This document shows positions 18,813 through 60,775 of a stretch of 60,808 nucleotides of DNA, piece after piece. A model generated the notes under the pieces. It was not told where the DNA came from. It saw nothing but the letters and a program-made list of their open reading frames with translations, and did no database searches. Position 1 is the stretch's first letter. Each line of letters opens with the position of its first letter. The stretch comes from Candidatus Cloacimonadota bacterium (GTDB taxonomy: Bacteria; Cloacimonadota; Cloacimonadia; Cloacimonadales; WRIO01), in NCBI GenBank assembly GCA_029553545.1, contig JAKPKU010000072.1:1-60808 (forward strand), read 5' to 3'. Made by a program: the position numbers and the translations under genes.

Positions 18813-19130
18813 TTAGTCCATATTTTCGTAAAAGTCCATAGCTGCAACTTTAATATAAACATCACGACCAAGCTGCTCGCTCATTTTTATCTTATGTTTC
18901 AAGATATTTGTCCATAAGTCATAGATATTACGATCTTTCAAGTCTTTGCCCAGGTAGTGTTTGAGCATAGATTGGTAAAAATCGTCTCTATCTCCTTCTA
19001 CTTTTACAATTACAAGTCTAAACACTTCAGTACTAACATCATAATCTCTGTATCTTACGTCTATCACTGCATAACCCAATTTCAAGAGACTATCATAATT
19101 GATTTGAATATCATTTTCATTGTTTGTCAT
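18813..19130 (-). CDS. Small conserved-looking protein of unknown function
   Basis: I do not recognise this 105-residue protein. It is soluble, with no signal peptide or membrane segment. The middle is beta-like (YAVIDVRYRDYDVSTEVFRL) and the C-terminal half helical. It has a convincing GGAG site 5 bases before the ATG and sits 3 bases upstream of ndk, so it is the first gene of the ndk-ackA-mre run. A TTGACA on the minus strand (19193-19188), about 60 bases upstream, could be part of the operon promoter, but no good -10 box follows at the right distance. Confidence 0.65.
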   Translation of the reverse strand: MTNNENDIQINYDSLLKLGYAVIDVRYRDYDVSTEVFRLVIVKVEGDRDDFYQSMLKHYLGKDLKDRNIYDLWTNILKHKIKMSEQLGRDVYIKVAAMDFYENMD

Positions 19131-19237
19131 TTTAACTCCAATATTTTTATATTATATTGTATTCCAAAAATTAAAAATATGATACTTTGTCAACGCATTA
19201 TTTAGATAAATGAAAAATATCTAAGATTACCTATTTT

Positions 19238-19413
19238 GAGACTGTTGCATAGTGGCCAAAATAACTTATCAAAGAATAAAATGGAATCTTAAAATTAAAC
19301 ATCACCCTCTATATATATAGGGCTTACAAAATGGTTTTTTTGAAAACTATTTTCACCTGAATCCGCAGATGACTACTACAAGCGGGTTTAGGGGTGATTT
19401 TTTTTGCAACACA
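19238..19413 (+). repeat. Dispersed MITE-like element, copy B
   Basis: A 176-base element that starts GAGACTGTTGCA and ends TGCAACAC, giving short imperfect inverted ends. It shares with copy C (60605-60775) an identical internal block of about 32 bases that includes CCCTCTATATATATAGGG, and the GAAAACTATTTTCACCT and CTACTAC blocks. It carries no open reading frame. It marks the left edge of the repeat-rich accessory region. Confidence 0.6.
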
Positions 19414-19420
19414 CGATTTT

Positions 19421-19480
19421 GATCCTCGCTTCGCTGCGGGTTAGGAGCTTTCACATTTGTGAAAGGTTTTTTTTAAAGGA
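19421..19480 (+). repeat. Mosaic hairpin cassette fragment
   Basis: Begins with the cassette opener CCTCGCTTCGCTGCGGG, then GTTAGG and an 8-base-pair hairpin CTTTCACA-TT-TGTGAAAG. It is a short piece of the hairpin arrays described at 29335-29810. Confidence 0.6.
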
Positions 19481-19501
19481 TATTGCAACTTCTTTTTAAT
19501 A

Positions 19502-19757
19502 ATCTATCATTCACAATAATCTGGCTTTGTAAATACAAATAGCCTTATTTGTATACGTGCGATGGACAACTACGAACAAACCAAAAAGAAATCTATCATT
19601 CACAATAATATGGCTTTGTAAATACAAATAGCCTTATTTGTATACGTGCGATGGACAACTACGAACAAACCAAAAAGAAATCTATCATTCACAATAATCT
19701 GGCTTTGTAAATACAAATATCCTTATTTGTATACGTGCGATGGATAACTACGAACAA
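19502..19757 (+). repeat. Three tandem copies of an 89-base hairpin repeat
   Basis: Units start at 19502, 19591 and 19680 (period exactly 89; the third is shorter). The first two differ at about one position. Each contains a perfect 9-base-pair palindrome ATACAAATA-GCCT-TATTTGTAT; the third copy has one change in an arm. Further copies lie at 28700-28777, 29103-29270 and 31743-31820, giving seven in the window. No reading frame runs through them and no variable spacers separate them, so this is not a CRISPR array. Confidence 0.85.
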
Positions 19758-19766
19758 GTAAACGTA

Positions 19767-19917
19767 GGTACAATCTATCTTAGTTGTACCAAAATAAGAC
19801 CGAAAAAAAATCCTTATAACAAACAAAAATCAATTGATTTTTTACCTAACCTTCGACGCAGTCGAAGTACCTAACCGTTGCGAAGCAATGTACCTAACCC
19901 GCAACGAAGTGAGGACC
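19767..19917 (-). repeat. Mosaic hairpin array, reverse orientation
   Basis: Reverse-orientation version of the array at 29335-29810. It begins with GGTACAA and TTGTACC arms (19767-19790). After a linker come the palindrome AAAAATCAATTGATTTTT and then hairpins separated by TACCTAAC: CTTCGAC-GCA-GTCGAAG, CGTTGC-GAA-GCAATG (one G-T pair), and the opener reading CCGCAACGAAGTGAGG. It lies 104 bases upstream of the deiminase-like gene. The remaining bases to 20021 carry a TTGACA at 19975-19980, a possible -35 box for that gene. Confidence 0.75.
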
Positions 19918-20021
19918 ACAAATAATGTACCGGCGAGGCTCAAAAGATATTTCCATGGCAATTATTTTTTCTGCTTGACATATATGCTTTTTTGATTTTT
20001 CTGAACCTAAAAGGAGGATAG

Positions 20022-22076
20022 ATGAAAAAAATACATAAACTCATTCTTTTCAGTCTATTATTAATCATATTAAGCATTGGGCAAGTATTTGCTCAAAATA
20101 TGCAGGAAATTAGTCCTTTACCATTGACTCATGAGATGAGTGATGATGAAATAGCTCTTATGCCTGCTTGGGTAATTGACAGAGAAAAATCAAACCCACC
20201 TACAGGACCTATCCGCCCTGTCGCCGAATTTGAACCTGCTACAAAAGTTTTAGTACGTTATCCTTTAGGATTCCATGTAAACTTTATCAAGCTACTTGCA
20301 GAAGAAATTGAAGTACTCACTATAGTCTCAAACGAATCTGTAAAAAACCAAGCTATACAAGCATATACAAATGCACAAGTAAACATGAGTAATTGCACTT
20401 TTGTGATTGGTGCAACTAATTCGTATTGGACACGTGACTTTGGTCCTTGGTTTTCATTCGATAGCAATAATAATCTCAGTGTTATAGATTTTACTTACAA
20501 TCGACCACGCCCATTAGATGATGCTTTTATACCGATCTATGCAGCTTACGATACACTAAATTGCTATACTATGTCTATCGTACAAACTGGCGGAAATTAC
20601 ATGTGCGACGGTATTGGCATTGCTGCTGCCTCACATATTGCTTATACTGAAAACTATAATAATCAGAGCTTAGTAAATGAACAAATGCAGCAGTTTTTAG
20701 GCATTGATACCTATCACGTTGTACAGGATCCAAATAATACATATATCGACCATATCGACTGCTGGGGCAAGTTTTTGGCACCTGATAAGATAATTATTCG
20801 TCAAGTACCTTCTACTCATCCAAGATATAATGCACTTGAACAGATGGCGCAATATTGGGCAAATCAAATGAGCTCTTACAATAGACCATTCAGAGTTTAC
20901 CGCGTTTATACTCCTAATGATCAGCCTTATTCAAACTCGCTAATTCTCAATAATCGCGTCTTTGTTCCTATCATGAACAATGCAAATGACGAGGCTGCGC
21001 TCCAAGCTTATCGCGATGCTATGCCTGGCTACACTGTGTATGGTGTCACAAATAATACGTCAAATCCATGGGAATCTACCGACGCTCTTCACTGCCGTAC
21101 GCATGAGATTGCTGATCGCAGAATGCTCTATATTTCTCATATGCCGCTCGCCTATGAACAAGAGATGCAGAATAATTATGCAATCGAAGCAGATATTATT
21201 TCTTATGGTGGCGCAGATATTATTGCTGATTCTACAAAAGTCTTTTTTAAAGTCAATCAAGGCGATTATACAAGCATTGATATGTCTTACTTTGCTGGAA
21301 ATCTCTACCATGCTGAAATACCAATCCCTGCTCTGGGTGACACTGTTTACTACTATATTCATAGCGTTGATACAAATAATAAAAAAGCAAATCATCCTCT
21401 CATGGGCGCATACGATCCACATTATTTCGTCATCAATGGTGACGACACAGAATTCCCTGTTATCGAACACGAGCCTATCGCAATTATTCATGAAAATGAA
21501 TTGCCTTATACAATCTCAGCGACAGTCACAGATAATGTTGGTATTGCAGAAGTTAAACTTGAGTTCCGCAGGAATGAATCAGATGAAATATATTCTATTA
21601 CCATGTCAGAATCAGATCAAAACATTTGGTCATGCCAGCTACAAAGCACCGATATCATTAGTGCCAGCTCCATCTATTATCGCATTACAGCCACCGATTT
21701 TGCTCAAAATACAAACTATTTTCCAAGTGAAGATACATGGATTCTTTGTGATTTGGATTTAAATATTGAAGATATTATCAAACCTCTTGAAAAAGATAAC
21801 TTCATTGCTGTCTATCCAAACCCTGTTAATTTCAACAAATCAGATATTAATATCAAATACTCAACCAGCGATACCAAAAGGGTCAAGTTTGAAATATACA
21901 ATATCAAAGGTCAAAAGGTATATGAATTTAATCAATTCAACCGTAAAAACGATACCAAAAGCATTCAAGTTGACCTCAGTGAACATGTGAAAACACGTCT
22001 TAAATCTGGCGTTTACTTTATCAAAATGTCTACCAATGATTACAGCGTCAGCAAAAAGATAATTATTATCAAATAA
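20022..22076 (+). CDS. Secreted peptidylarginine-deiminase-like protein with type IX sorting domain
   Basis: A guanidine-modifying enzyme of the agmatine deiminase/bacterial PAD superfamily, probably exported and surface-attached or released. A signal peptide covers residues 1-24. The catalytic domain (about 60-380) retains the family residues: D139 in WTRDFGPW, H244 and D246 in HIDCWGKF, N305 and nucleophile C358 in DALHCRTHE. Ig-like beta domains follow (about 385-580), then a C-terminal module starting YPNPVN with GQKVYE and SGVYFIK, typical of Por/type IX sorting domains. This order matches Porphyromonas PPAD. The product would be citrulline on proteins or a deiminated small guanidine; which one is unknown. 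AGGAGG precedes the ATG, and a perfect terminator follows the stop. Confidence 0.85.
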   Translation: MKKIHKLILFSLLLIILSIGQVFAQNMQEISPLPLTHEMSDDEIALMPAWVIDREKSNPPTGPIRPVAEFEPATKVLVRYPLGFHVNFIKLLAEEIEVLTIVSNESVKNQAIQAYTNAQVNMSNCTFVIGATNSYWTRDFGPWFSFDSNNNLSVIDFTYNRPRPLDDAFIPIYAAYDTLNCYTMSIVQTGGNYMCDGIGIAAASHIAYTENYNNQSLVNEQMQQFLGIDTYHVVQDPNNTYIDHIDCWGKFLAPDKIIIRQVPSTHPRYNALEQMAQYWANQMSSYNRPFRVYRVYTPNDQPYSNSLILNNRVFVPIMNNANDEAALQAYRDAMPGYTVYGVTNNTSNPWESTDALHCRTHEIADRRMLYISHMPLAYEQEMQNNYAIEADIISYGGADIIADSTKVFFKVNQGDYTSIDMSYFAGNLYHAEIPIPALGDTVYYYIHSVDTNNKKANHPLMGAYDPHYFVINGDDTEFPVIEHEPIAIIHENELPYTISATVTDNVGIAEVKLEFRRNESDEIYSITMSESDQNIWSCQLQSTDIISASSIYYRITATDFAQNTNYFPSEDTWILCDLDLNIEDIIKPLEKDNFIAVYPNPVNFNKSDINIKYSTSDTKRVKFEIYNIKGQKVYEFNQFNRKNDTKSIQVDLSEHVKTRLKSGVYFIKMSTNDYSVSKKIIIIK

Positions 22077-22080
22077 AGGT

Positions 22081-22105
22081 GATGCCTTCGGGCATCTCTT
22101 TTTTT
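22081..22105 (+). terminator. Rho-independent terminator after the deiminase-like gene
   Basis: A 6-base-pair stem GATGCC-TTCG-GGCATC with a UUCG-type tetraloop, followed by TCTTTTTTT. It starts 4 bases after the stop codon. Confidence 0.92.
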
Positions 22106-22124
22106 AGCAAAGATTGAGGTGAAA

Positions 22125-22664
22125 ATGTCCTATATTTGCCAAGAGTGTCACGAAACAAAGTATGGCTGCTGCAATTTTACAGGCGAACCAAACAGTATCG
22201 AAATAGGCATCTCAATCCCCGAAGCTATCATCATCCAAAAAGCAATAGGACTACCAATCTCCGACTTTTTGGAAAGAGATATGATCAATCCATTACTCGT
22301 CGACTCTATAGCCAGATCTATTCACCCCAACTTCAAACAAATCTTCTATAAAAATATCCGCTATAAACTCAAAACAGTCGACAATAAATGTATCTTTCTC
22401 ACCGATCAGGGCTGCCAATTGCCACGCAATATTCGCCCACATTATTGCAATCTCTATCCTTTTTGGCTCATGCCAGACGAAGATCGCCTACAAGTCCTCA
22501 TCAATCCCGATTGCTTGGCACAAACACGCGTCATAAATATTGTGGAATTACTCAAACTCTTTGGCATCAATCGTAATGATATCATAAATGAATTTTATGC
22601 ACTACAAGATAAACTAAAAGAGCATGTGGAATTCATAGATTCTGGGAAAGACATTATTCAGTAA
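22125..22664 (+). CDS. YkgJ-family cysteine-cluster protein
   Basis: A soluble 179-residue protein with the cysteine pattern of the YkgJ/CxxCxxCC group (putative zinc or iron-sulphur binding). The N-terminus has CQECHETKYGCC, and later come CIFLTDQGC and YCNLYPFW. The biochemical role of the family is unsettled. I start at the ATG at 22125, with GAGG 5 bases upstream; a GTG at 22119 overlaps that site. The preceding terminator suggests it is transcribed separately or by readthrough. A hairpin-cassette opener begins right after its stop. Confidence 0.8.
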   Translation: MSYICQECHETKYGCCNFTGEPNSIEIGISIPEAIIIQKAIGLPISDFLERDMINPLLVDSIARSIHPNFKQIFYKNIRYKLKTVDNKCIFLTDQGCQLPRNIRPHYCNLYPFWLMPDEDRLQVLINPDCLAQTRVINIVELLKLFGINRNDIINEFYALQDKLKEHVEFIDSGKDIIQ

Positions 22665-22669
22665 ACTTT

Positions 22670-22750
22670 GGTCCTCGCTTCGCTGCGGGTGAGGATTAAA
22701 GATAGTTGTCGCTACGTTTTTTGTCTCTACAAGTTGATATGCGAAGGTGT
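22670..22750 (+). repeat. Hairpin-cassette opener plus a dispersed 50-base block
   Basis: GGTCCTCGCTTCGCTGCGGG at 22670-22689 is the cassette opener. A block at 22701-22750 (from GATAGTTGTCGCTACG to GCGAAGGTGT) recurs almost exactly at 43096-43146, and its first part again near 28863. It lies between the convergent YkgJ-like and hsdM genes. Confidence 0.75.
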
Positions 22751-22784
22751 ACAATTAGCTGCACGTGGATTCTCTCTTATTTTT

Positions 22785-24266
22785 CTACTCCCCATTCAGG
22801 GTTTCCATCAATGCCTGAAAGCTCTCCAATCCTGCTTCTATATTTTCTATTATCTCGTTCGCCAAAATATCTGGGTCTGGCAAGTTATCTAAGTCTGTTA
22901 AGCTATCATCCTTAAGCCAAAATATATCCAAGCTTGTCTTATCTCTTTCAATGATTTCATCATAACTAAATTTTCTCCATCTTCCTTCTGAGTTGCTCTC
23001 TGACCATGTTTCCTGCCTTTTATGTCTATTGGACGGATTATAGCATTTGATAAAATCCTCTAAATCTTCAAATTCCATAGGTTTCTTCTTCAAAGTATGA
23101 TGGACATTGGTTCTATAGTCATAAAACCATATCTCTTTTGTCCAAGGGTGTCTGGCTCCTGGTTTATTGTCAAAGAAAAGCACATTAGCCTTAACACCTG
23201 GTCTATAAAAAATCCCTGTAGGTAGTCTTAGTATAGTGTGAAGGTCTGTTGTTTTAAGGAGTTCTTTTCTAACTGTTTCTCCTGCCCCTCCTTCAAATAA
23301 AACATTATCTGGTAAAACTACTGCAGCCTGTCCTTCATCTTTTAATAATGTTCTTATATGTTGTAAAAAGTTTAATTGCTTGTTTGATGTGGTCACCCAA
23401 AAGTCTTGTCTATTATAAACCAAATCTTCCCTGACTTGCTCTCCTCCTCCATTAGTAATAGTCATTGATGATTTTTTCCCAAAAGGAGGATTTGCAAGAA
23501 CATAATCATACCTCTTACCCTCATCTGCTATTAAGGCATCAGCAGAAGAAATAGAAGTCTCTCCATCAATTTCGCCTATATTATGTAGAAACATATTCAT
23601 CAAGCAAAGCCGTCTGGTATTCGCTACAATCTCGTTACCATAAAAGGTTTTATTCTTTAAAAATTCCTTTTCTTCTTTATTTAAATCGTGGTCTTGGCTA
23701 ATGTAGTCATAGGATGCCAAGAAAAATCCACCTGTCCCACAGGCTGGGTCAGCTATGGTTTTACTTGGTTCAGGCTGAACACAGGCAACCATTGCCTTTA
23801 TAAGGGCTCTGGGCGTAAAGTATTGACCTGCACCACTTTTGGTATCCTCTGCATTTTTTTCTAAAAGGCCTTCATAAATTCTCCCTTTTAGATCAGATCC
23901 CATCATTGCCCAATCTTCCTTATCAATCATTTCAATAATTCTGGAAAGCTTTGCAGGATCTTGAATTTTATTCTGTGACTTGGTAAAAATTTGTCCCAGT
24001 GTCCCTTTCGCATTGGATAGCTCTCTTAAAGTTTTATTATAGTGGTCTTCAAGCTCAGCTCCGCGCATCTTATTTAAATCATTCCAAGTATATCCATCTG
24101 GAATACTTATCTCTCTTGAATAGGGAGGTTTGGAAAATTCATCTACCATCTTGAGAAAAAGCAAATAAGTAAGCTGCTCTAAATAATCACCATAGCTTAC
24201 TCCATCATCTCTTAATATATTAGCAAAATTCCATACTTTTGAAACTATATTAGATTCATTTACCAT
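22785..24266 (-). CDS. hsdM: Type I restriction-modification DNA adenine methyltransferase (M subunit)
   Basis: This subunit methylates adenine in the recognition sequence and protects self DNA. The N-terminal helical HsdM domain (1-140) is followed by the methyltransferase domain. It has the SAM-binding motif I DPACGTGG (173-180) and catalytic motif IV NPPF (259-262). At 493 residues it is full length and the frame is intact. It is the last gene of an hsdR-hsdS-hsdM operon, starting 2 bases after hsdS. That gene order is less common than R-M-S. The enzyme is expected to work as M2S for methylation and R2M2S for restriction. Confidence 0.95.
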   Translation of the reverse strand: MVNESNIVSKVWNFANILRDDGVSYGDYLEQLTYLLFLKMVDEFSKPPYSREISIPDGYTWNDLNKMRGAELEDHYNKTLRELSNAKGTLGQIFTKSQNKIQDPAKLSRIIEMIDKEDWAMMGSDLKGRIYEGLLEKNAEDTKSGAGQYFTPRALIKAMVACVQPEPSKTIADPACGTGGFFLASYDYISQDHDLNKEEKEFLKNKTFYGNEIVANTRRLCLMNMFLHNIGEIDGETSISSADALIADEGKRYDYVLANPPFGKKSSMTITNGGGEQVREDLVYNRQDFWVTTSNKQLNFLQHIRTLLKDEGQAAVVLPDNVLFEGGAGETVRKELLKTTDLHTILRLPTGIFYRPGVKANVLFFDNKPGARHPWTKEIWFYDYRTNVHHTLKKKPMEFEDLEDFIKCYNPSNRHKRQETWSESNSEGRWRKFSYDEIIERDKTSLDIFWLKDDSLTDLDNLPDPDILANEIIENIEAGLESFQALMETLNGE

Positions 24267-24268
24267 AA

Positions 24269-25549
24269 TTAATTTACCTCCTTATTATCTTCTTTTATTC
24301 TTTTTAACAATTCTGCTGCTGGCTCCCAATCATCTTCTTGTCTGCATGCTTCTAATACTTCCTTAGATAGTAACTTGCCTTCAAAGGCTTTTTTCAAGAT
24401 GCTCTGGCGTAAAGCTTCAGCTTTTTCAAGAGCTTCCTCTATATTAGCTTCTATATTTTCGCAAACAGAAAGACGAGATTCTATTTCTTGAACAATTTGG
24501 TTTTGTTCCTTTAAAAGAGGTAAAGGAATGATTTGTTCAAATACATCTTTATCTCTAACAGCAGGATAAGAAGAACCTGTTTGAAGTTTATTAAGCGGCT
24601 GAAGGAAGCCTTCATATATTGTAAAATAAAAAATGAATTTTGGGTCTAACAGTTTTTCAATGCCTCTTATTACCGTAAAACCAGATGAGCATATCTGATT
24701 ATTATGTATACTATCTGTTACTTGAGCAATATTTTTTAAATATGTTCTTACTGTTGAAAATAAAACATCACCTATCTTAATTATCTGTTGTGCCCTTGAT
24801 GGTGCGTCTTCCCATTTATATACCTTATGAGAGATAATTTTATATATTTCATTATCAATACTTCCTATATCAATATAAAAAAATTGTTTGTGTTTATCTA
24901 AGTTTTTTTTGTTTATTTTTTCTACTTTATCACAAACATCGCCAAGCTTTCTTCTCATCCATTCATTTTGCATCTCAGTACAAATATTTTTTTCTCTCCA
25001 TTTCCTTGTCAGCTTTCCTTCAAAAGCTGCTTTTAATACTGCCTGCCTATATATTTCTAATTGTTCTTTCGCTTTCTTAAGACTTTCTATTCCACTATCT
25101 AATTTAGAAAATGATTCTTCAATTTTAGCTACAATGGCTCTTTGTTCTGGTAGGGGAGCTATTGCAATATTTAGTTTAGAAAATATTGAAATCCAATATC
25201 TTTTATGAGTATCTACGTTGTGCCTAATAGTTTGCATATGGTAATAAACATATTTAACATTAACTTCTTCTGATGATGGTGCCAATATTTTCATAGCTGA
25301 TGACTTTACTTTGAATTTGAAATTTACATATTTAGTAGAAGTTGTAAAATCATCAAAAATTATAACTGGTAGAGTAGCAAATACATTATTTTCCTCATCT
25401 GTATACCCTAAAATAAAAGTTTTACCTGCAGTTAATACGGGCGTTTTATAGTTGTCATTATAAGCAGTTGACTCAACTATGTAATTAGTAGGTTGAATAT
25501 AGTTTAGTAAATCTTCAAGTTTTCCTTCAATCCAATTTTCTCTCATCAT
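24269..25549 (-). CDS. hsdS: Type I restriction-modification specificity subunit
   Basis: HsdS sets the DNA target through two target-recognition domains. TRD1 covers residues about 1-130 and TRD2 about 195-345. They are separated by matching helical conserved regions: PLPEQRAIVAKIEESFSKLD with AAFEGKL, and PLPLLKEQNQIVQEIESRL with KAFEGKL. Both halves are present and in frame, so specificity should be bipartite. The start overlaps the hsdR stop (ATGA, 4 bases). No inverted repeats or second hsdS copy that would allow phase-variable shuffling are visible. The target sequence cannot be predicted by eye. Confidence 0.93.
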   Translation of the reverse strand: MMRENWIEGKLEDLLNYIQPTNYIVESTAYNDNYKTPVLTAGKTFILGYTDEENNVFATLPVIIFDDFTTSTKYVNFKFKVKSSAMKILAPSSEEVNVKYVYYHMQTIRHNVDTHKRYWISIFSKLNIAIAPLPEQRAIVAKIEESFSKLDSGIESLKKAKEQLEIYRQAVLKAAFEGKLTRKWREKNICTEMQNEWMRRKLGDVCDKVEKINKKNLDKHKQFFYIDIGSIDNEIYKIISHKVYKWEDAPSRAQQIIKIGDVLFSTVRTYLKNIAQVTDSIHNNQICSSGFTVIRGIEKLLDPKFIFYFTIYEGFLQPLNKLQTGSSYPAVRDKDVFEQIIPLPLLKEQNQIVQEIESRLSVCENIEANIEEALEKAEALRQSILKKAFEGKLLSKEVLEACRQEDDWEPAAELLKRIKEDNKEVN

Positions 25550-28341
25550 GCTACCAATGCCTCATTTAATTCATTTATAATTTCAAACATATTATCTCCA
25601 AATAACTTATACATTTTTCCTCTTCCTCCTTGACTGTTGAATGGTAGATTATCCAAATCTTCTATTTCAATATGGAAGCTTGTAGCCACATGTTCTTTAA
25701 TCATTCTTAACCATTCCATTTGTTCTTTTGTATATTTTAGAGGACCCGCTTGCTTACCAAAGACCCATTTTTGAAAATTCCTATCTACTATTCTGTTGTA
25801 GGGAGTAAGGGCTTTGTCCAAGCCAGTTACTCTTCTTATTAAGGAAACAAGTGCTACCAGCTCATTTTTAGGGCTTTTACCTTTTACATCTTCTAATTGA
25901 CTATAAGCATCCCAAACATAATGAGGTGCAAGTAGCGGTTTTTCAGTTTTTAATTTTTCAAACAATTCCTTTATCATTTTAAAAGTTAATTCTCTCATTC
26001 TATATGGTTGATTATAAAAGATACTAAAAGCAGTAATCTCATCTTTGTTTTCTGCTATATATTCTTCAAAGCTTTTTACTATCTCTTTTGCCTTATCTTT
26101 TGTAAAACTATCCAATCTTGCCTTTAGAACTTTGTCTTGATTAATATTATCTATAATTTGCTCATGTGATTTTCTAACATTTTCAATATAGCTATTTAAC
26201 TCACCTGTGAAAACTTTAGCTGCTTTTGTTGCCAGTTGTTCTCCTGCTTTCTTTTTGCACTCTTCCTCTTTTGATTTCGTTCTTTCTGGCTCAGGTATTT
26301 CATTTAACAATTCTATAGTTTTAGCTTCAATTAAATCTGGATCATAAGCATCAAGTAGGTTTTTAGTCATATCTTTTAGACTCTGCCCACCACTTTTCTC
26401 TATTATTTTTTCCCTCTCATTTTCTCTAAGCTGTTTATCCAAACGAATTAACCTATTAGCTAAAGAAGTAAATAAATCTTCATCCTGTACTCCCATAGAT
26501 ACAGCCCCTAATAAATCTTTTAAGGCAACTGTTCTTTTTCTTTCCAATGATCTACTATCTGTCTTTCTTGATTTTGTTACACCTATAGCATCAACTATGA
26601 TAAAATGGGTCTTTGTATGTTTTGCCGTACTTGATACTTTTTTCAAGTCATCATAGTTTATAGTTCTTGTACCTCTCCCCTTCATTTGTTCAAAATAATT
26701 AGAGCTTTTTACATGCCTCATAAAAAGCAATACTTCCAGAGGTTTTACGTCTGTTCCGGTCGCTATCATGTCAACTGTTACAGCTATTCTTGGATTCCAT
26801 GAGTTTCTAAATCGATTTAATACCGATTTAGGGTCCTCCTCAGCTTTATATGTGATTTTTTTACAAAACTCATTACTCTCATTAAACTCTTCTCTTATCA
26901 TATGTATAATGTCATCTGCATGGCTATCAGTCTTTGCGAAAACCAGGGTTTTGGGCACTTCAAAAACCTCATCTTTATCATAACGGTCAGGGAAAACCTT
27001 CTTTAAAGCTTCTTTATATGCCCTAATAATACATCTAATCTGGTCTATGCTTACCACATCTTTATCCAAGTCTTTTGCTGAATATTCGATATCCTCGTCC
27101 AATTGTTCCCATCTCATTTTCCGTGTTAGCCTCTCTCTTTTGTCAACATATTCTTTAGCTTTTAATTCTGCCCCAGCTTGGGATATCTCGGTTTCTATTG
27201 TATAAACATCATAAGGAACATTGACACCATCAGCTACAGACTCCTCATATGTGTACTCACTAACTACATTCTCTTTAAAAAAACCAGTAGTTCTTTTATC
27301 AGGGGTTGCAGTAAGTCCAATTAAAAATGAGTCATAATAATCTAAAACTTGCTTCCATAAATTATAAATGGATCTGTGGCACTCATCTATAATTATAAAA
27401 TCAAACTGCTCTATTGGGTTATCTTTAGAATACTCAACAGGCATGGGGTCTTTCTTATTCCATTGCCAACTACTTTCATTAGGATTTTCTTCTTCAAAAG
27501 ATTCCTCAAGTTCTTCACCTTTTAAAATCGAATATAATCTCTGAATAGTGGAAATACAAACGTGACTATCTTGAGCTATGTAGCTTGATGTTAATCTTTG
27601 AACATTATATAATTCGGTAAATTTCCTGTTATCATCCTTAGAATGATATCCCATAAATGCCTGTTCGGCTTGTTCGCCTAAGTTTTTGGTATCTACGACA
27701 AAAAGTATTCTTTTAGCTTTGGCAAATTTTAATAATCGATAGACAAAGGTACAGGCAGTATATGTCTTACCAGCACCTGTTGCCATCTGAATCAAAGCCC
27801 TTGGTTTATTGTTTTTAAAGGATACCTCTAAGTTTTCTATAGCTTTTATCTGTGCAGCTCGCAATCCATCCTTCTCCAAGGCTGGCATATCTTGCAATCG
27901 ACCTCTGAGGGTTGTTTCTTCCTTAAGCCATTCTAATAAAGTTGATGGTTGATGAAAGTTGAATATTATTCGTGAACGAGGTTTAGGGTCTCTATAATCA
28001 ATAAACTTTGTTTCAACACTTGTACTCAGATATGCAAAAGGCAAGGAATCCTTTTTTACAATATTCTTAAGCTTTGCATGTGCATAATAATAGACTTGAT
28101 CCTCAGCAGCTATAAGCCTTTGCCCTTCATCCTCTCTTTTTGCTTCTATAACTCCTAAAGGTTTACTATCAACAAATAAAATATAGTCAGCAGGTCCCAC
28201 ATCAGTTAAATATTCTCTTACGGCAACTCCCTTGCATTCTGACAAATTAACACTTTTATTATCTTGAACACTCCAACCAGCATTTCTTAGCATTTGGTCA
28301 ATTTTGTCTCTTGCTTTTTCTTCTGGACTTTGGTTTATCAT
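25546..28341 (-). CDS. hsdR: Type I restriction endonuclease motor subunit
   Basis: HsdR translocates and cleaves unmodified DNA. The N-terminal PD-(D/E)XK nuclease has GPADYILF and VIEAKRE. The helicase motor has Walker A MATGAGKT, a DECHRS box and motif III LIGLTATP, then a C-terminal helicase domain with VDMIATGTDVKPL and MKGRGTRT, and a helical tail that contacts the methylase. I chose the ATG at 28341 (931 residues), with AGGGGG upstream. The frame stays open for 81 more codons, but that part is hydrophobic, lacks family similarity and covers the promoter. All catalytic blocks are intact, so the system looks functional. Confidence 0.94.
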   Translation of the reverse strand: MINQSPEEKARDKIDQMLRNAGWSVQDNKSVNLSECKGVAVREYLTDVGPADYILFVDSKPLGVIEAKREDEGQRLIAAEDQVYYYAHAKLKNIVKKDSLPFAYLSTSVETKFIDYRDPKPRSRIIFNFHQPSTLLEWLKEETTLRGRLQDMPALEKDGLRAAQIKAIENLEVSFKNNKPRALIQMATGAGKTYTACTFVYRLLKFAKAKRILFVVDTKNLGEQAEQAFMGYHSKDDNRKFTELYNVQRLTSSYIAQDSHVCISTIQRLYSILKGEELEESFEEENPNESSWQWNKKDPMPVEYSKDNPIEQFDFIIIDECHRSIYNLWKQVLDYYDSFLIGLTATPDKRTTGFFKENVVSEYTYEESVADGVNVPYDVYTIETEISQAGAELKAKEYVDKRERLTRKMRWEQLDEDIEYSAKDLDKDVVSIDQIRCIIRAYKEALKKVFPDRYDKDEVFEVPKTLVFAKTDSHADDIIHMIREEFNESNEFCKKITYKAEEDPKSVLNRFRNSWNPRIAVTVDMIATGTDVKPLEVLLFMRHVKSSNYFEQMKGRGTRTINYDDLKKVSSTAKHTKTHFIIVDAIGVTKSRKTDSRSLERKRTVALKDLLGAVSMGVQDEDLFTSLANRLIRLDKQLRENEREKIIEKSGGQSLKDMTKNLLDAYDPDLIEAKTIELLNEIPEPERTKSKEEECKKKAGEQLATKAAKVFTGELNSYIENVRKSHEQIIDNINQDKVLKARLDSFTKDKAKEIVKSFEEYIAENKDEITAFSIFYNQPYRMRELTFKMIKELFEKLKTEKPLLAPHYVWDAYSQLEDVKGKSPKNELVALVSLIRRVTGLDKALTPYNRIVDRNFQKWVFGKQAGPLKYTKEQMEWLRMIKEHVATSFHIEIEDLDNLPFNSQGGRGKMYKLFGDNMFEIINELNEALVA

Positions 28342-28420
28342 GACTTTCCCCCTCCCTTTTTCAGTTTTCACACCTATATAAAACATTGAGAATTGTCCCA
28401 ATATCACATTTTCATTGTCA

Positions 28421-28449
28421 AATAAATCATGTAATGGTAATACTGTCAA
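28421..28449 (-). promoter_or_regulatory. Likely hsdRSM promoter
   Basis: On the minus strand TTGACA (28449-28444), 17 bases, then TTTATT (28426-28421). The same GTCCTTGACA-like block and downstream leader (CTATATAAAACATTGA when read on the plus strand) recur before the decayed second hsd operon at 31551-31579, which supports a real promoter and leader. Confidence 0.55.
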
Positions 28450-28699
28450 GGAATAAATTACAAAAAGGTAAAATAGTGTCAAGGGGGCAAGTGTGTTGTT
28501 GACAGATCTGAGAACTGAGTTGGCTGGTAATTTCACTGCGTGAAATTGATCTATTGAATCGTTTATGTACTCGAAGGCAGCCATTGGTTCTTATACAATT
28601 AAGGCTAATTGTATCTACAATTAGCTGCACGTGAATTTTACATTAGGTATTTCTTTCTGGTAGAAAGAAATATATAAGGAAGTATCTTCTTTTTTAATA

Positions 28700-28777
28700 A
28701 TCTATCATTCTCAATAATATAGCATTGTAAATACAAATAGCCTTATTTGTATATGTGTGATGGATAGCTACGAACAG
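28700..28777 (+). repeat. 89-base hairpin repeat, single copy
   Basis: Diverged copy of the unit at 19502, with the ATACAAATA/TATTTGTAT palindrome intact. Together with the following repeats it makes up the gene-free stretch 28450-29821. Confidence 0.75.
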
Positions 28778-28870
28778 GTAAATAGATGCATTCTTTCAAT
28801 ATCATGAAGTGAAAGGTTTTTTAAAGGAGGGTAGCTATTACTTGCTTCGCTGCACAACTAAGGATAGTTG

Positions 28871-28910
28871 TGGCTACGTTTAAAAAAAATCCTTTTTTTA
28901 AACGTAGCCA
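28871..28910. repeat. Perfect 18-base-pair inverted repeat with A/T core
   Basis: Arms 28871-28888 and 28893-28910 are exact reverse complements around a 4-base loop ATCC. Each arm is TGGCTACGTT followed by an A-rich run. Because both strands carry a T run at the 3' arm start rather than after the stem, it is not a standard terminator. It may be two facing cassette ends fused head to head, since TAGTTGTGGCTACGTT resembles the 22701 and 43096 blocks. Confidence 0.8.
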
Positions 28911-28946
28911 GCAGCGAAGCAAGGCAAGTGAGTTGGTCCAGTTTGC

Positions 28947-29070
28947 TGACGAGCAAAGCTCTTTGGTCCTCACTTCGTTGCGGGTTAGGTACTTTGTTTT
29001 GGTCCTCACTTCGTTGCGGGTTAGGTACTTTTCTTCGAAAAGGTTAGGTATTTTCACTTCGTGAAAGGTT
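28947..29070 (+). repeat. Mosaic hairpin array
   Basis: Two openers (CCTCACTTCGTTGCGGG, 28969-28985 and again near 29003) each followed by GTTAGGTA. Then come hairpins CTTTTC-TTC-GAAAAG, GTTAGGTA, and a TTTCAC-TTC-GTGAAA hairpin. It is preceded by GAGC-AAA-GCTC (28951-28961). The plus-strand reading frame here is an artefact of the repeats. Confidence 0.75.
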
Positions 29071-29102
29071 TTTTTAAAGGAAGTTGCAACTTCTTTTTAA
29101 TA

Positions 29103-29270
29103 ATCTATCATTCTCAATAATATAGCTTTGTAAATACAAATAGCCTTATTTGTATATGTGCGATGGATAGCTACGAACAAACAAAAAGAAATCTATCATT
29201 CTCAATAATATGGCTTTGTAAATACAAATAGCCTTATTTGTATACGTGCGATGGACAACTGTGATCAGGT
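29103..29270 (+). repeat. Two tandem copies of the 89-base hairpin repeat
   Basis: Units start at 29103 and 29191 (period 88). Each has the ATACAAATA-GCCT-TATTTGTAT palindrome. The last bases of the second unit diverge. Sequence on both sides (28797-28845 and 29280-29350) is itself a near-duplicate, so the whole block appears to have been copied. Confidence 0.8.
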
Positions 29271-29334
29271 AAATAGATATATTCTCTCAATATCATGAAG
29301 TGAGAGGTTTTTTTAAAGGAGGGTAGCTATTAAT

Positions 29335-29810
29335 TGCTTCGCTGCGGGTTAGGTACTTTTTTTGGTCCTCACTTCGTTGCGGGTTAGGTACTTTTCTTCG
29401 AAAAGGTTAGGTATTTTCACTTCGTGAAAAGTTAGGTACTTCGACTTCGTCGAAGGTTAGGTAAAAAATCAATTGATTTTTGTTTGTTTTAAGGAATTTT
29501 GCGGTCATATTTTGGTACAACTAAGATAGATTGTACCTACGGTTTGATGCGACTTCGTCGCTTTCTGACGAGCACAGCTCTTTGGGTCCTCGCTTCGCTG
29601 CGGGTTAGGTACTTTTCTTCGAAAAGGTTAGGTATTTTCACTCCGTGAAAAGTTAGGTACTTCGACTTCGTCGAAGGTTAGGTAAAAAATCAATTGATTT
29701 TTGTTTGTTATAAGGATGTTTGCGGTCTTTTATGGTACAACTAAGATAGATTGTACCTACGGTTTGATGCGACTTCGTCGCTTGCTGACGAGCACAGCTC
29801 TTTGGTCCTT
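29335..29810 (+). repeat. Mosaic hairpin arrays, two tandem copies of a ~220-base cassette
   Basis: Cassettes start with GGTCCTC at 29364 and 29585, and a third start at 29804 runs into the dinD fragment. In the second cassette the spacer GTTAGGTA lies at 29604-29611, 29627-29634, 29652-29659 and 29677-29684. Between these spacers are hairpins CTTTTC-TTC-GAAAAG, TTTTCAC-TCC-GTGAAAA (TTC loop in the first cassette), and CTTCGAC-TTC-GTCGAAG. The palindrome AAAAATCAATTGATTTTT follows at 29685-29702. Further on are GGTACAA/TTGTACC arms, GCGAC-TTC-GTCGC and GAGC-ACA-GCTC. There is no plausible gene. Confidence 0.85.
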
Positions 29811-29821
29811 GCTTTGCGCCT

Positions 29822-30052
29822 TTAGGCATATCTATCATTTTCGTGACCTCACGAAAATGATCCAAAACCTCAAAGCCCGTTGTTTCACAATAAGTTATTG
29901 CACGATTAATTGCGGTCTCAAAGTTTTCCCAATGCTTATAACCTAACAGTTCTTGTAATTCTCGAGCATACCAAAACTCAAAATCATCCTCTGTTTTATG
30001 TATAACCGTATCAAATTGGTTTTTTAAAACTCTTATATTATCAGATGTTATT
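29822..30052 (-). pseudogene. Truncated dinD-like fragment, downstream copy
   Basis: Reading on the minus strand gives an intact frame resembling the N-terminus of DinD-family proteins: FEFWYARELQELLGYKHWEN, then VLDHFREVTKM. The start codon position reads ATA instead of ATG and overlaps the rhuM stop. The frame leaves DinD similarity after GAKQG, where the hairpin cassette begins. A perfect 13-base-pair inverted repeat (29834-29846 / 29849-29861) lies inside. It is a near-duplicate (about 206 bases) of the piece at 31141-31351. It is probably not expressed as a functional protein. Confidence 0.75.
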
Positions 30053-31049
30053 TCTTTTCGCTCTCGCCCTTAAGCCGTTTCTTCATTTCGCTTAGTGTTT
30101 CGAGATACGCCCTTTCCACCTCGGTCAGTTCGTCGGAAAATTGTACACGGTAGCGGTCATACTCGCCATGTGCTTTCTCCATTGCCCGTTCGTGGCTGAC
30201 CGAACCAGAACCCTCCAAAACGCCCACGCCAAAATCACGGGAAAATTTGTCCAAAATCTCCAACCAGTCGCGCATATACATCGGTTCATGTCTTTCCGCC
30301 TTAAGTTCCGCCATATCAAAGAAGGCGTTGACCATGCGTCGCAGGGCAAACAGTTCTTTTTCGGTCATATAGTTTTTAGCGATCGAAACCTCGCTTTTCA
30401 CGGGCCGCTTGCCTTTGAAGGTCGTTAAACCCATAAAAGGCAGTTCTGCGTTGGCGCGGTCAAATATAATCTCGCTCGCCGTGTGTCCGCTGACGGCATA
30501 GTGCAGCTTGTTCTGCACGATTTTAAAGAATTCCAGCGTCTCCTGCATGGTGGCATTGTAGTCGAGGCTTGTTGCATAGAGATCGAGAATTTGTCGATAC
30601 ATGACTTTTTCACTGGCACGGATGTCCCGAATACGCTCCAGAAGTTCTTTCCAATAAATGCCGCCGCCCATATTTTTCAGGACTTCGTCGTTCATGGTAA
30701 AGCCCTTTTGCAAATACTCATGTAAAACGGTCGTTGCCCACTGCCGGAACTGTGTGCCGCGCGGAGATTTCACACGATAACCGACCGCCAAGATAGCATC
30801 GAGGTTATAATGCTTTATGTTGTAGGTTTTATTATCAGCTGCAGTTGTTCGGAAATTCCGAACAACTGAATCTTCAAAGAGCTCGCCTTCCTCAAAAATG
30901 TGCTTCAGGTGCTCGCTAATATTCGATTTACTCGTCTGGAAAAGTTCGACCATACCAGCTTGTGTCAGCCAGACGGTTTCCCCCTCCATCTGCAGGTCGA
31001 TCTTCGTCAGCCCGTCCTGAGTTTGATAGATAATTATTTCAGATTTCAT
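30048..31049 (-). CDS. rhuM: RhuM-family protein
   Basis: A 333-residue soluble protein of the RhuM (virulence protein) family. The conserved N-terminal part has ETVWLTQAGMVELFQTSKSN, a helix-turn-helix-like region, and TYNIKHYNLDAILAVGYRV. Genes of this family are often found beside or inside type I restriction operons, although the function is not established. I chose the ATG at 31049, preceded by AGGGG; the TTG at 31055 is within that context. Base composition is clearly richer in G and C than the neighbouring hsdRSM operon, which suggests separate transfer. It is flanked on both sides by copies of a dinD fragment. Confidence 0.88.
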   Translation of the reverse strand: MKSEIIIYQTQDGLTKIDLQMEGETVWLTQAGMVELFQTSKSNISEHLKHIFEEGELFEDSVVRNFRTTAADNKTYNIKHYNLDAILAVGYRVKSPRGTQFRQWATTVLHEYLQKGFTMNDEVLKNMGGGIYWKELLERIRDIRASEKVMYRQILDLYATSLDYNATMQETLEFFKIVQNKLHYAVSGHTASEIIFDRANAELPFMGLTTFKGKRPVKSEVSIAKNYMTEKELFALRRMVNAFFDMAELKAERHEPMYMRDWLEILDKFSRDFGVGVLEGSGSVSHERAMEKAHGEYDRYRVQFSDELTEVERAYLETLSEMKKRLKGESEKK

Positions 31050-31066
31050 ACCCAACCCCTCTTTTT

Positions 31067-31351
31067 CTAATCATTCATCACCCTCACCGTCCTTTGGCAA
31101 TGCACCGCCTTGTTTTGCCCCACTACCCAGTGGAACCATATTCGTGACCTCACGAAAATGGTCAAAACCTCAACGCCCGTTGTTTCACAAGAAGTTATTG
31201 CACGATTAATTGCTGTCTCAAAGTTTTCCCAACGCTTATAACCTAACAGTTCTTGTAATTCTCGAGCATACCAAAACTCAAAACCATCCTCTGTTTTATG
31301 TATAACCGTATCAAATTGGTTTTTTAAAACTCTTATATTATCAGATTTCAT
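31067..31351 (-). pseudogene. Truncated dinD-like gene, upstream copy with frameshift
   Basis: Starts at ATG 31351 with MKSDNIRVLKNQF and continues FEFWYARELQELLGYKRWEN, as in DinD-family proteins. A 1-base loss near 31160, compared with the other copy, shifts the frame. With it restored the protein would read DHFREVTNMVPLGSGAKQGG and stop at a TGA a few codons later, far short of the full family length. Its ATG overlaps the stop of the hsdM remnant (ATGA), which fits an original operon hsdM-dinD-rhuM. Confidence 0.75.
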
Positions 31352-31468
31352 ATCCAATCACCCCCCAGTCTTTTCCTAATCTTATCCTCCAACTCATGCG
31401 AGCGCTTAAACATATCCGAAAGCTCTCCCGTCAGTCGCTCCTTTGGTCATATCTTCAATTTTTGCCAT
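31348..31468 (-). pseudogene. Remnant of a second hsdM-like gene
   Basis: The last 30 codons before the TGA at 31350-31348 read LTGELSDMFKRSHELEDKIR and then KRLGGDWI, like the C-terminal helix of type I methylases. Upstream, in a different frame, an ATG at 31468 gives MAKIEDMTK. The leader before that ATG matches the leader of the intact hsdR. I infer a large internal deletion that removed the methyltransferase core and fused the gene's ends out of frame. Confidence 0.6.
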
Positions 31469-31550
31469 ACACTGACTCTCCCTTTTTCAGCTTTCCACAT
31501 CTATATAAAACATTGAACCCCTCAATACCAGATCATTAAGAGCATAATCA

Positions 31551-31579
31551 TATTAATCAGATAAGGATAATATTGTCAA
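31551..31579 (-). promoter_or_regulatory. Duplicate hsd-type promoter
   Basis: TTGACA (31579-31574), 17 bases, then TTAATA (31556-31551) on the minus strand, with the same flanking GTCC and downstream leader as the promoter at 28421-28449. It may still drive rhuM. Confidence 0.5.
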
Positions 31580-31589
31580 GGACTTTTTT

Positions 31590-31708
31590 GGTCCTCGCTT
31601 CGCTGCGGGTGAGGTACTTTTCTTCGAAAAGGTTAGGTATTTTCACTTCGTGAAAAGTTAGGTACTTCGACTTCGTCGAAGGTGAGGTACTTTCACTTTC
31701 GTGAAAGG
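31590..31708 (+). repeat. Mosaic hairpin array
   Basis: Opener CCTCGCTTCGCTGCGGG, then CTTTTC-TTC-GAAAAG, TTTTCAC-TTC-GTGAAAA and CTTCGAC-TTC-GTCGAAG separated by GTTAGGTA or its variant GTGAGGTA. The last hairpin is CTTTCAC-TTTC-GTGAAAG, whose loop has one extra base. Confidence 0.8.
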
Positions 31709-31742
31709 TTTTTTTAAAGGAAGTTGCAACTTCTTTTTATTA

Positions 31743-31820
31743 ATCTATCATTCTCAATAATATGGCTTGTAAATACAAATAGCCTTATTTGTATACGTGC
31801 GATGGACAACTACGAACAGG
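31743..31820 (+). repeat. 89-base hairpin repeat, single copy
   Basis: Copy of the unit at 19502 with a 1-base deletion (GGCTTGT for GGCTTTGT) and the 9-base-pair palindrome intact. Confidence 0.75.
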
Positions 31821-31871
31821 TTAATAGATCCATTCTTTCAATTTCACACAGTGAAATTACCTACAGCTTAA

Positions 31872-31963
31872 CAAAAATCAATTGATTTTTTACCTAACCT
31901 TCGACAGTCGAAGTACCTAACCTTTACGAAGTAAAGTACCTAACCCGCAGCGAAGCGAGGACC
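31872..31963 (-). repeat. Mosaic hairpin array, reverse orientation
   Basis: AAAAATCAATTGATTTTT, TACCTAAC, CTTCGAC-A-GTCGAAG (loop reduced to one base), TACCTAAC, CTTTAC-GAA-GTAAAG, TACCTAAC, then the opener as CCGCAGCGAAGCGAGG. The CTTTAC stem is not seen in the other arrays. Confidence 0.8.
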
Positions 31964-32012
31964 CAAAAGGTGTGTTGTTTAAAAAAAGAATGTATGAGTT
32001 GCGCCAATGTCT

Positions 32013-32045
32013 CATGGAACATTATTGCCAGTGTTTTAAAAAGTG
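32013..32045 (+). repeat. Dispersed 33-base block in gene-free stretch 31964-32417
   Basis: CATGGAAC to AAAAAGTG recurs with three mismatches at 43386-43418. The rest of this stretch is AT-rich. The minus-strand 65-codon frame across it runs out of the repeat array and has no ribosome-binding site, so I see no gene here. Confidence 0.6.
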
Positions 32046-32417
32046 AGATGTTTAAAAAAAAAACTCCCTTTGATTCCCTTTTGATTCCTTTAATATTACC
32101 TTTCATTCTCCAAGATAGCAAGGGGAATGTCAGGGGAGTCCCATAGGCATATTATTGAAAAATAGTAATATACAAAAAGTGGGAGAGGGTTAGCGAAAAG
32201 TGAGAAAAAATAGGACCTCATGGTAGTAAAATTAGTTTTTATTTGACACCTTTTATAATAAAAAAAGGGCTGTTTTTATATTGCAATTTTCATGTTATTT
32301 TGATTCTCTGAAAAATATTATATTTTTCTTGCAATTTTTGGGAATTGACGATAATTTCATGAGATTGTAATGAACAAATCTGCAAGATTTTTTCTTTGCA
32401 AATCTTGTTTTATTTGG

Positions 32418-32445
32418 TTGACTTATTTTTTAAAAGTATTATCTT
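32418..32445 (+). promoter_or_regulatory. Promoter for the first TPR gene
   Basis: TTGACT at 32418-32423 and TATCTT at 32440-32445 (16-base gap). The same TTGACTTAT start and spacing occur before the third TPR gene, which supports it. The gap to the TTG start is short, so the untranslated leader is only about 10 bases. Confidence 0.5.
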
Positions 32446-32461
32446 ATAAATGGAGGTTATT

Positions 32462-33997
32462 TTGCAATCAGAAAAAATAAAAAAAATAATTAGTGATGAG
32501 TCTAAAACTATAAAAGAAAACATTGTTGAGGAGCTTGAACAATTACGCAAAAGCGTCCTTAACTCTAAGGAAGATAGTATTTTGAAGGTTGATCTTCTTA
32601 TCGAACAGTGTAGTCAATACGGGTTTAAAGAAGAATTAGTAGACAGTATACAAGTAAAGAGCCACATAATTTCGACAAAGGGAGATTATGAATTAGCCAT
32701 TGCAACAGTAGAAAAGGCAATAAGTCTTGCTGAACAAATAGAGTCACCGTATTTGCGTGGTTTGACAAATAATCAATGTGGGATAATACACTTTAATTAT
32801 AGTTTTTTTGACAAGGCAATTGCTCAATTTCTTAAGGCAACGGATTATTTCAAACTCACTGACCAGCATAAATATAAGTGTAATTCTATTCGTAATGTAG
32901 GTGTTGCATATCTAAGAAAATCCGAGTTTATAAAGTCTGAAGAATATCTCATGAAGGCATTGCACTGTGCAAATGAACACCAATTAAAGGATGTGAAAGC
33001 TACTATCCTGTCCTGGCTGGGCATATTAGAAAATGAGCAAGCAAACTATGACAAGGCAGTCGAACATTTAATCGAATCTAATGATATTTTATATGAGATA
33101 AAGGACTTTTTTAACTATGCTGTAAATTTAAATATCATTGCTTTGACTTATATTTATAGTAAAACTGATATTGCAATTGAATACTTGAAACAGGCAGAGG
33201 AGATTTCCAGAAAGTATGAGTACTACTATATTCTTGCGGATGTGACGCATAATTTTGGTTTGGCTTACTTTGAGCAGAAAAACTATGAGAAATCCTTGGA
33301 AAAGTATTTTGAGTCTCTGGAATATGGCAAAAGATCTACATCTATTGACAAAACATCAAATACATACCACAATATTGGTGATGTCTACAATTCCTTAAAT
33401 AAACATGACTTAGCTATGGAATACTTGCAAAAAGCTCTGAAGATCAGAAAGGATGCAAATCATAAGTATCGTATTGCTGAAAGCTATATTTCCATAGCTT
33501 CGACTTATTTGTTGCAGGACTTGGATGATGAAGCTTTGGATGCGTGTAATATGAGCATGGAATATGCAGTTGAATTTAATAATGCAAATCAATTATCAGC
33601 TTTGTATAAGGTTTATAGTACATATTATGAAAAAAGAGGTAATTTTAAAACAGCTTATGAATTTTATACACTTTACAGAGAAGAAAAAATCAAGAGCAAT
33701 AGAGAAAAAGTGAATAGAGATATTTTAAACATACAAAAGCGATTTGAATTGAGTAATATCGAAAGAAATGCAAAGATTAAAGAGCAAGAGGAGGCTTTAA
33801 AAGGTAGTATTGCAATGGCTATCACAGCTAATCACCACATAAACCAGCCATTGACAGTATTGCAAGGTAATGTGGACTTGATAAATAGCAAACTTGAAGC
33901 GTGCAATATGAGCTCTGACAAGACTTATTTATTGCAAATACAAGAGATGATTGAAAACATACAGCATACCTTACACATGTTTAGAAAGAATAATTGA
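32462..33997 (+). CDS. TPR protein with orphan histidine-kinase DHp-like tail (type A, copy 1)
   Basis: Cytoplasmic protein of 511 residues with no signal peptide or membrane segment. Residues about 40-385 are a run of TPR units (e.g. SNTYHNIGDVYNSLNKHDLA). A charged coiled coil spans about 390-445. The last 64 residues resemble a kinase DHp helix pair: GSIAMAITANHHINQPLTVL carries an H-box-like motif (HHINQPL, first His = H458), followed by a second helix. No ATPase domain follows. It could dimerise with, or be phosphorylated by, another kinase; this is inference. I use the TTG at 32462 because GGAGG lies 5 bases upstream; the ATG at 32450 overlaps that site. It is paralogous to the gene at 35788. 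Confidence 0.75.
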   Translation: MQSEKIKKIISDESKTIKENIVEELEQLRKSVLNSKEDSILKVDLLIEQCSQYGFKEELVDSIQVKSHIISTKGDYELAIATVEKAISLAEQIESPYLRGLTNNQCGIIHFNYSFFDKAIAQFLKATDYFKLTDQHKYKCNSIRNVGVAYLRKSEFIKSEEYLMKALHCANEHQLKDVKATILSWLGILENEQANYDKAVEHLIESNDILYEIKDFFNYAVNLNIIALTYIYSKTDIAIEYLKQAEEISRKYEYYYILADVTHNFGLAYFEQKNYEKSLEKYFESLEYGKRSTSIDKTSNTYHNIGDVYNSLNKHDLAMEYLQKALKIRKDANHKYRIAESYISIASTYLLQDLDDEALDACNMSMEYAVEFNNANQLSALYKVYSTYYEKRGNFKTAYEFYTLYREEKIKSNREKVNRDILNIQKRFELSNIERNAKIKEQEEALKGSIAMAITANHHINQPLTVLQGNVDLINSKLEACNMSSDKTYLLQIQEMIENIQHTLHMFRKNN

Positions 33998-60604: not shown

Positions 60605-60775
60605 GAGGCTGTTGCAGAGTACTTAAAATATCTTATAAAAGAATAAAGCAGATTTAAAAAACAACACCCTCTATATATATAGGGCTTACAAAATGGTGTT
60701 TTTTGAAAACTATTTTCACCTAAATCAGTAGATGCCTACTACGAACGGGTTTAGGGGTGATTTTTTACAACGCAC
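60605..60775 (+). repeat. Dispersed MITE-like element, copy C
   Basis: A 171-base copy of the element at 19238-19413. It opens with GAGGCTGTTGCA and contains CCCTCTATATATATAGGG, GAAAACTATTTTCACCT and CTACTACGAACGGG. It occupies most of the stretch upstream of metH (60525-60808), which has no gene. Confidence 0.6.

Follow-up and report, generated by a model that had tools for sequence, protein, structure and literature searches.

The closest described relatives of the repeats considered here are the REP/BIME elements and the RAYT enzymes that accompany them (REPtrons), in particular those of the GTAG super-family. They consist of short extragenic palindromes, clustered as well as dispersed, with complementary stem variants and short loops, and of a RAYT gene that has related repeats on both sides (PMC3733652; PMC2817692), and all of these traits recur in the hairpin arrays described below. 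Among the enzymes, subclass 2.7 of TnpA_Y1 is tabulated with the motifs [ND]HVH, WQ and YI[LR][NQ]NP and a mean length of 213 aa (PMC6006769). For REPs with perfect stems, another study reports that one loop base is essential and that a mismatch that breaks the stem abolishes cleavage, changes of the stem sequence having milder effects (PMC8266576).

The locus to be compared with these systems was recognized in a window (the whole 60,808-nucleotide stretch of DNA that was analysed) of a draft genome of Candidatus Cloacimonadota, which comprises 2.88 Mb in 268 contigs. A reading of the sequence alone had reported hairpins separated by a fixed 8-base spacer, GTTAGGTA, present four times in one array, at 29604, 29627, 29652 and 29677, and directly bounded by palindromes. 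These positions are exact, and so are the palindromes, namely CTTTTC-TTC-GAAAAG, TTTTCAC-TCC-GTGAAAA and CTTCGAC-TTC-GTCGAAG. Each array unit is composed of GTTAGGTA and a palindrome of 15 or 17 nt (a stem of 6-7 bp and a T-N-C loop). The units, usually one to five per array, follow each other head to tail with a start-to-start spacing of 23-26 nt, mostly 23 or 25, over the 47 arrays that were read. A head, TTTTGGTCCTCGCTTCGCTGCGG, is present at the start of nearly all of the 47 arrays; it can form an imperfect hairpin of its own, again with T-N-C as the loop. At the other end, most of the arrays carry one of two tails: AAAAATC-NNNN-GATTTTT and further bases in tail A, or CTTTCAC-NNNN-GTGAAAGGTTTTTTTAAAGG in tail B. 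Between TTTTGGTCC and the last base of tail B (GGTTTTTTTAAAGG), the columns have a high information content, which drops towards 0 on either side, so that the arrays are discrete elements. The elements of the window are the following, in window coordinates.

19417..19479, plus strand: minimal element, a head joined directly to tail B, with no spaced hairpin unit
19826..19918, minus strand: array with a head, spacers at 19891, 19868 and 19843, stems CATTGC (imperfect) and CTTCGAC, and tail A
28844..28920, no strand assigned: copy of the 77-bp three-way-junction element (see below), GCTTCGCTGC...GCAGCGAAGC enclosing CACAACTA-AGGA-TAGTTGTG
28962..29080, plus strand: array with two heads, spacers at 28984, 29020 and 29043, and a tail B hairpin, ending in GGTTTTTTTAAAGG
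29336..29481, plus strand: array 1, with two heads, spacers at 29348, 29383, 29406, 29431 and 29456, and three hairpins
29464..29481, plus strand: tail A of array 1
29581..29702, plus strand: array 2, with head TTGGGTCCTCGCTTCGCTGCGG and the four spacers at 29604, 29627, 29652 and 29677
29612..29626, 29635..29651 and 29660..29676, plus strand: hairpins of array 2
29685..29702, plus strand: tail A palindrome of array 2, AAAAATCAATTGATTTTT
31588..31720, plus strand: array with a head, spacers at 31609 (GTGAGGTA), 31632, 31657 and 31682 (GTGAGGTA), three hairpins and tail B
31873..31966, minus strand: array with a head, spacers at 31937, 31914 and 31891, stems CTTTAC and a shortened CTTCGA, and tail A

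The window arrays thus do occur in both orientations, as had been claimed. Near 19421, where a further array had been placed, an element is indeed present at about 19417-19479, but it is made of head and tail only. Right after tail B there is often a second dispersed repeat, about 89 bp long and arranged in tandem twos or threes with an inner palindrome, TACAAATAAGGCTATTTGTA; its sites are 19463-19764, 28661-28784, 29064-29275 and 31703-31826.

In the window, GTTAGGTA occurs 20 times, as against 1.0 in shuffles (largest 5). Genome-wide, the spacer alone is only moderately enriched (146 occurrences versus 105 in the reversed control). Over the whole draft, GTTAGGTA-N13..19-GTTAGG gave 78 spaced pairs and none in the reversed control. 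Regions covering the 47 arrays were extracted and all read in one orientation, which yielded 120 flanked units, and 106 spaced hairpins were used for the stem and loop counts. With a length of 23-25 nt, the units fall within the size range of REP palindromes (20-40 nt), and they are likewise numerous and both dispersed and clustered. The arrays are extragenic: no open stretch of 150 codons contains any of the 47 midpoints. In the window, three gaps between genes hold arrays, and two of them separate divergent genes, which places the arrays upstream of genes there.

Among 125 genomes of the phylum, the arrays were found only in the source genome, the few matches to the spacer followed by GTTAGG in the other 124 being of low complexity or unrelated. 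A genome of the same genus, G001, contains neither arrays nor a match to the RAYT-1 protein discussed below. Its gene order matches that of the window on either side of 19204-19973, at 72-76% DNA identity, and the products of the neighbouring genes, acetate kinase and a PAD-like protein, are 88% and 75% identical, respectively. The syntenic gap of 415 bases in G001 holds no array, and its sequence is unrelated to that of the window rather than a clean empty site. This synteny without an array implies that the arrays were either gained in the source lineage or lost in G001. Across all GTDB species, a single further locus had the succession of spacer, hairpin and spacer with a TTC loop. It belongs to Prevotella sp. 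tf2-5 (L076, about 3070-3125) and consists of a tandem GTTAGGTACGCCCTTCGAGGGA, in which the sequence of the hairpin is different.

The sequence-only reading had stated that no described element has such a design, which is too strong, since compensatory variants of the stem and a tagged foot are known from described REP/BIME systems (PMC3733652; PMC6006769). The arrays nevertheless differ from the GTAG REPs by their foot, GGTA(C/T), their constant 8-base spacer, their multiple stems and their distinct head and tails (PMC3733652; PMC2817692). The Group 3 TnpA_REP systems, e.g., those of Stenotrophomonas and Marinomonas, resemble the arrays in having perfect palindromes, a key loop base and a looser demand on the foot; their loop is GCT, compared with T-N-C in the arrays (PMC8266576). 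The foot of the array hairpins is formed by GTTAGGTA and a following C or T, i.e., GTA plus the stem, and the tetranucleotide GTAG or GTGG is absent from this 5' foot. What is unusual in the arrays is their head-to-tail order, whereas most REPs pair in inverted orientation, together with the fixed spacer and the several different stems per array. In the portions of the REP/RAYT literature that were covered, neither head-to-tail multi-stem arrays with a fixed spacer and defined head and tails nor a foot-and-loop rule across a RAYT lineage in a phylum was found. A modular head, middle repeats in variable number and a tail also make up the pneumococcal BOX elements (boxA-boxB(n)-boxC). The middle units of BOX are longer than the array units and do not form a series of different stems, and the likeness is one of architecture.

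That the arrays could be substrates of an HUH/RAYT-like enzyme encoded elsewhere had also been suggested, and this idea is supported by the presence of two RAYTs in the genome, one of which, RAYT-1, has on both sides an element with modules in common with the arrays. Pfam Y1_Tnp matches were obtained at two places of the genome, corresponding to an IS200-type TnpA and to RAYT-1, and RAYT-1 used as a query retrieved the second RAYT (RAYT-2) and a fragment. RAYT-1 is encoded on contig C113 as one full-length copy of 216 aa. It passes the NF047646 model (REP-associated tyrosine transposase) with 80.5 bits for a cut-off of 80, its family profile found only 4er8 (TnpA_REP) in the PDB, and 4er8 is also the best match of its predicted fold (pLDDT 82; E 1.2e-7). 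Its HUH motif and catalytic tyrosine (H121, H123 and Y186) are invariant in 26 aligned sequences, and it carries NHVH, WQ and YILNNP, as well as residues matching the W-Q-D-H-R guide-contact set. By motif alone, RAYT-1 fits the tabulated subclass 2.7; this subclass is reported with long canonical GT[AG]G REPs (PMC6006769), whereas the flanks of RAYT-1-like genes display GTA[ACGT] feet and stems of 7-8 bp.

RAYT-1 is a low-copy gene flanked by hairpins. On both of its sides is found a 77-bp element, GCTTCGCTGCGGGTATCGTTTAAAAAAATC-NNNN-GATTTTTTTAAACGTACCCACAACTA-TCCY-TAGTTGTGCAGCGAAGC, which is often located within 1 kb of arrays; its CACAACTA hairpin has 29 sites genome-wide. This element holds both the head module of the arrays, GCTTCGCTGCGGGTA, and their tail palindrome, AAAAATC-NNNN-GATTTTT. 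The array nearest RAYT-1 lies about 0.7 kb upstream, the direct flank being this related three-way-junction element. The arrays are probably REP/BIME-like non-autonomous mobile repeats, most likely served by RAYT-1, which would be the enzyme that acts on them.

It appears unlikely that RAYT-2 (contig C20) or the IS200-type TnpA (contig C186) is instead the enzyme serving arrays of this REP-like kind, although the TnpA is intact and RAYT-2 has repeats of its own close by. On either side of RAYT-2 (L046, 670-1800) stand tandem GTAGGGGCGAGC-TNY-GCTCGTC REPs with a GTAG foot, the whole being a textbook REPtron. About 80 copies of this REP are dispersed in the genome, many of them adjoining GTTAGGTA arrays, so that co-location alone cannot choose RAYT-1 over RAYT-2. 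However, the head and tail-palindrome modules of the arrays are shared with the element flanking RAYT-1 and not with the RAYT-2 REPs, and those RAYT-2 REPs that were seen have one constant GC-rich stem.

For RAYT-1, the flanks of related genes were inspected over 300 nt at 30 loci, i.e., its own and 29 others in the phylum, mostly 29-42% identical. They contain 137 hairpins, as against 3.3 in shuffles, spread over 27 of the 30 loci, and 98 of these 137 hairpins have a GTA foot, compared with 16% for random placement. The loops are mostly TCCN or GCC, the stems are perfect over 7-8 bp, and several stems coexist in most of the loci. Because the hairpins were selected as perfectly paired, covariation among them was left uncounted, and the evidence taken from them is their enrichment and their GTA foot. 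The array unit, with its GTA foot, perfect stem of 6-7 bp and TTC, TCC or TGC loop, has a layout common to most RAYT-1-like loci. In G056, which encodes one of the closest homologues, GTAC-footed hairpins with a TTC loop are present at five places only. Most of the homologue loci (L077-L105) were seen to harbor at least two hairpin types each, with different stems and often as inverted pairs. These loci constitute a natural data set for RAYT/REP co-evolution.

The 106 array units, picked by their flanking spacers and their length alone, have 96.8% of their stem positions paired, and the stems of 87 of them are perfect. About eight stem types recur, the common ones being CTTCGAC, CTTTAC, CTTTTC, TTTTCAC, CATTGC, CTCTGAC and CTTTCAC. 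The earlier claim that both arms change together holds among distinct stem types. In 10,000 trials in which the 3' arms were re-dealt among the distinct arm pairs, the observed pairing was attained 3 times for the 6-bp stems and 4 times for the 7-bp stems (p about 4e-4), in a small sample of 8 (6 bp) and 12 (7 bp) distinct pairs of which several are one-step mutants of others. The claim does not extend to every unit, as about 18% of them are mismatched, mostly in one arm. Independent mutation of the arms had been named as evidence that would count against covariation, and some one-arm mutants do exist, including CATTGC/GCAACG, which occurs seven times. The latter is also the form of the CATTGC stem in the window, where the partner is imperfect, but perfect CATTGC/GCAATG copies are found elsewhere in the genome. 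The other objection, namely that the stems descend from one ancestral block copied whole, was checked and does not apply, since the units are arranged in about 30 different orders. The loop, described as mostly TTC, is indeed TTC in 70 of the 106 units, but the rule is T-N-C (TCC in 19, TGC in 13), closed by C-G in 102 of the 106.

Covarying stems could also result from selection on RNA if the arrays acted in transcripts, as small RNAs, attenuators or terminators; tail B forms a hairpin with GTTTTTTT behind it and scores as a terminator at 31690-31707. Such structured RNAs, the alternative offered by the sequence-only reading, have nevertheless gained no support and are improbable. There is no Rfam match near the gathering score in the region 19000-32500 of the window, terminator-like sites are hardly more frequent than in shuffles (5 versus 2.9), and G-T (G-U) pairs are rare in the array stems. 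In addition, the arrays lie in both orientations, and two of the three gaps that hold them in the window are those between divergent genes.

It is even less probable that the covariation is a mere mutational by-product of template switching at quasipalindromes, with neither selection on hairpins nor an enzyme. This mechanism is documented (PMC8794818; PMC7202029), and the one-arm mutants are in keeping with it, but it leaves unexplained the fixed spacer, the T-N-C loop, the dispersal to 47 arrays, their sharp ends and the modules shared with the element at RAYT-1. Template switching is compatible with the RAYT-based explanation, and both can operate together. The compensatory change had been taken to mean that the hairpin itself is maintained or actively generated. 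The covariation is real, but selection is not required for it, given that template switching also yields compensation (PMC8794818); either process may be the source of the paired stem changes, and the data do not separate them. A relation to integron recombination sites, suggested by the fit of GTTAGGT in the spacer to GTTRRRY, the attC/attI core, is highly improbable, as the arrays are direct repeats of one core without an inverse RYYYAAC paired within the element, they are scattered rather than collected in a cassette array, and no integron integrase exceeds the family cut-off in the genome (best 80 bits versus 265), comparably weak matches being present in all 14 control genomes.

If RAYT-1 serves the arrays, an array strand that becomes single-stranded, for instance as the lagging-strand template, would fold into a row of short hairpins. 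As an HUH tyrosine enzyme of the TnpA_REP type, RAYT-1 would recognize a hairpin by its GTA foot and its loop, and not by the stem sequence, cut near the foot of the hairpin and rejoin the ends, and the element would thereby be moved or multiplied. The stem sequences would be free to drift because only the foot, the loop and perfect pairing would matter, and the arms might remain complementary through selection for pairing, through template-switch repair of a mismatched arm, or through both.

More tentatively, RAYT-1 and its relatives might practice a stem-agnostic recognition, in which a GTA foot and a short loop are read on any perfect stem of 6-8 bp. If this were the case, a single element could hold several unrelated stems, and their rearrangement as modules could give rise to tandem mosaic arrays. 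Together with some two dozen related loci in the phylum, the source genome offers a natural collection of hairpins with nearly constant foot and loop and with variable stems, often within one locus, which makes stem-independent recognition directly testable. The C-TNC-G loop of one strand corresponds to C-GNA-G on the other, a class of unusually stable DNA triloops, and this leads to a prediction about which strand folds. ViennaRNA, with RNA and DNA parameters, was uninformative as to a strand or loop preference, because its model assigns one energy to all triloops.

The third kind of dispersed repeat (CACCCTCTATATATATAGGGCTTACAAAATGG...CGGGTTTAGGGGTGATTTTTT) measures about 110 bp and lies at either end of the window as well as upstream of RAYT-1 (46-155 on the minus strand, 19297-19403 and 60658-60767 in the window; 3725-3830 of L011). 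A RhuM-like gene (30048-31055) is enclosed by 192-bp direct repeats (29863-30054 and 31163-31354) that are 96% identical; a type I restriction hsdR gene is present in the same region.
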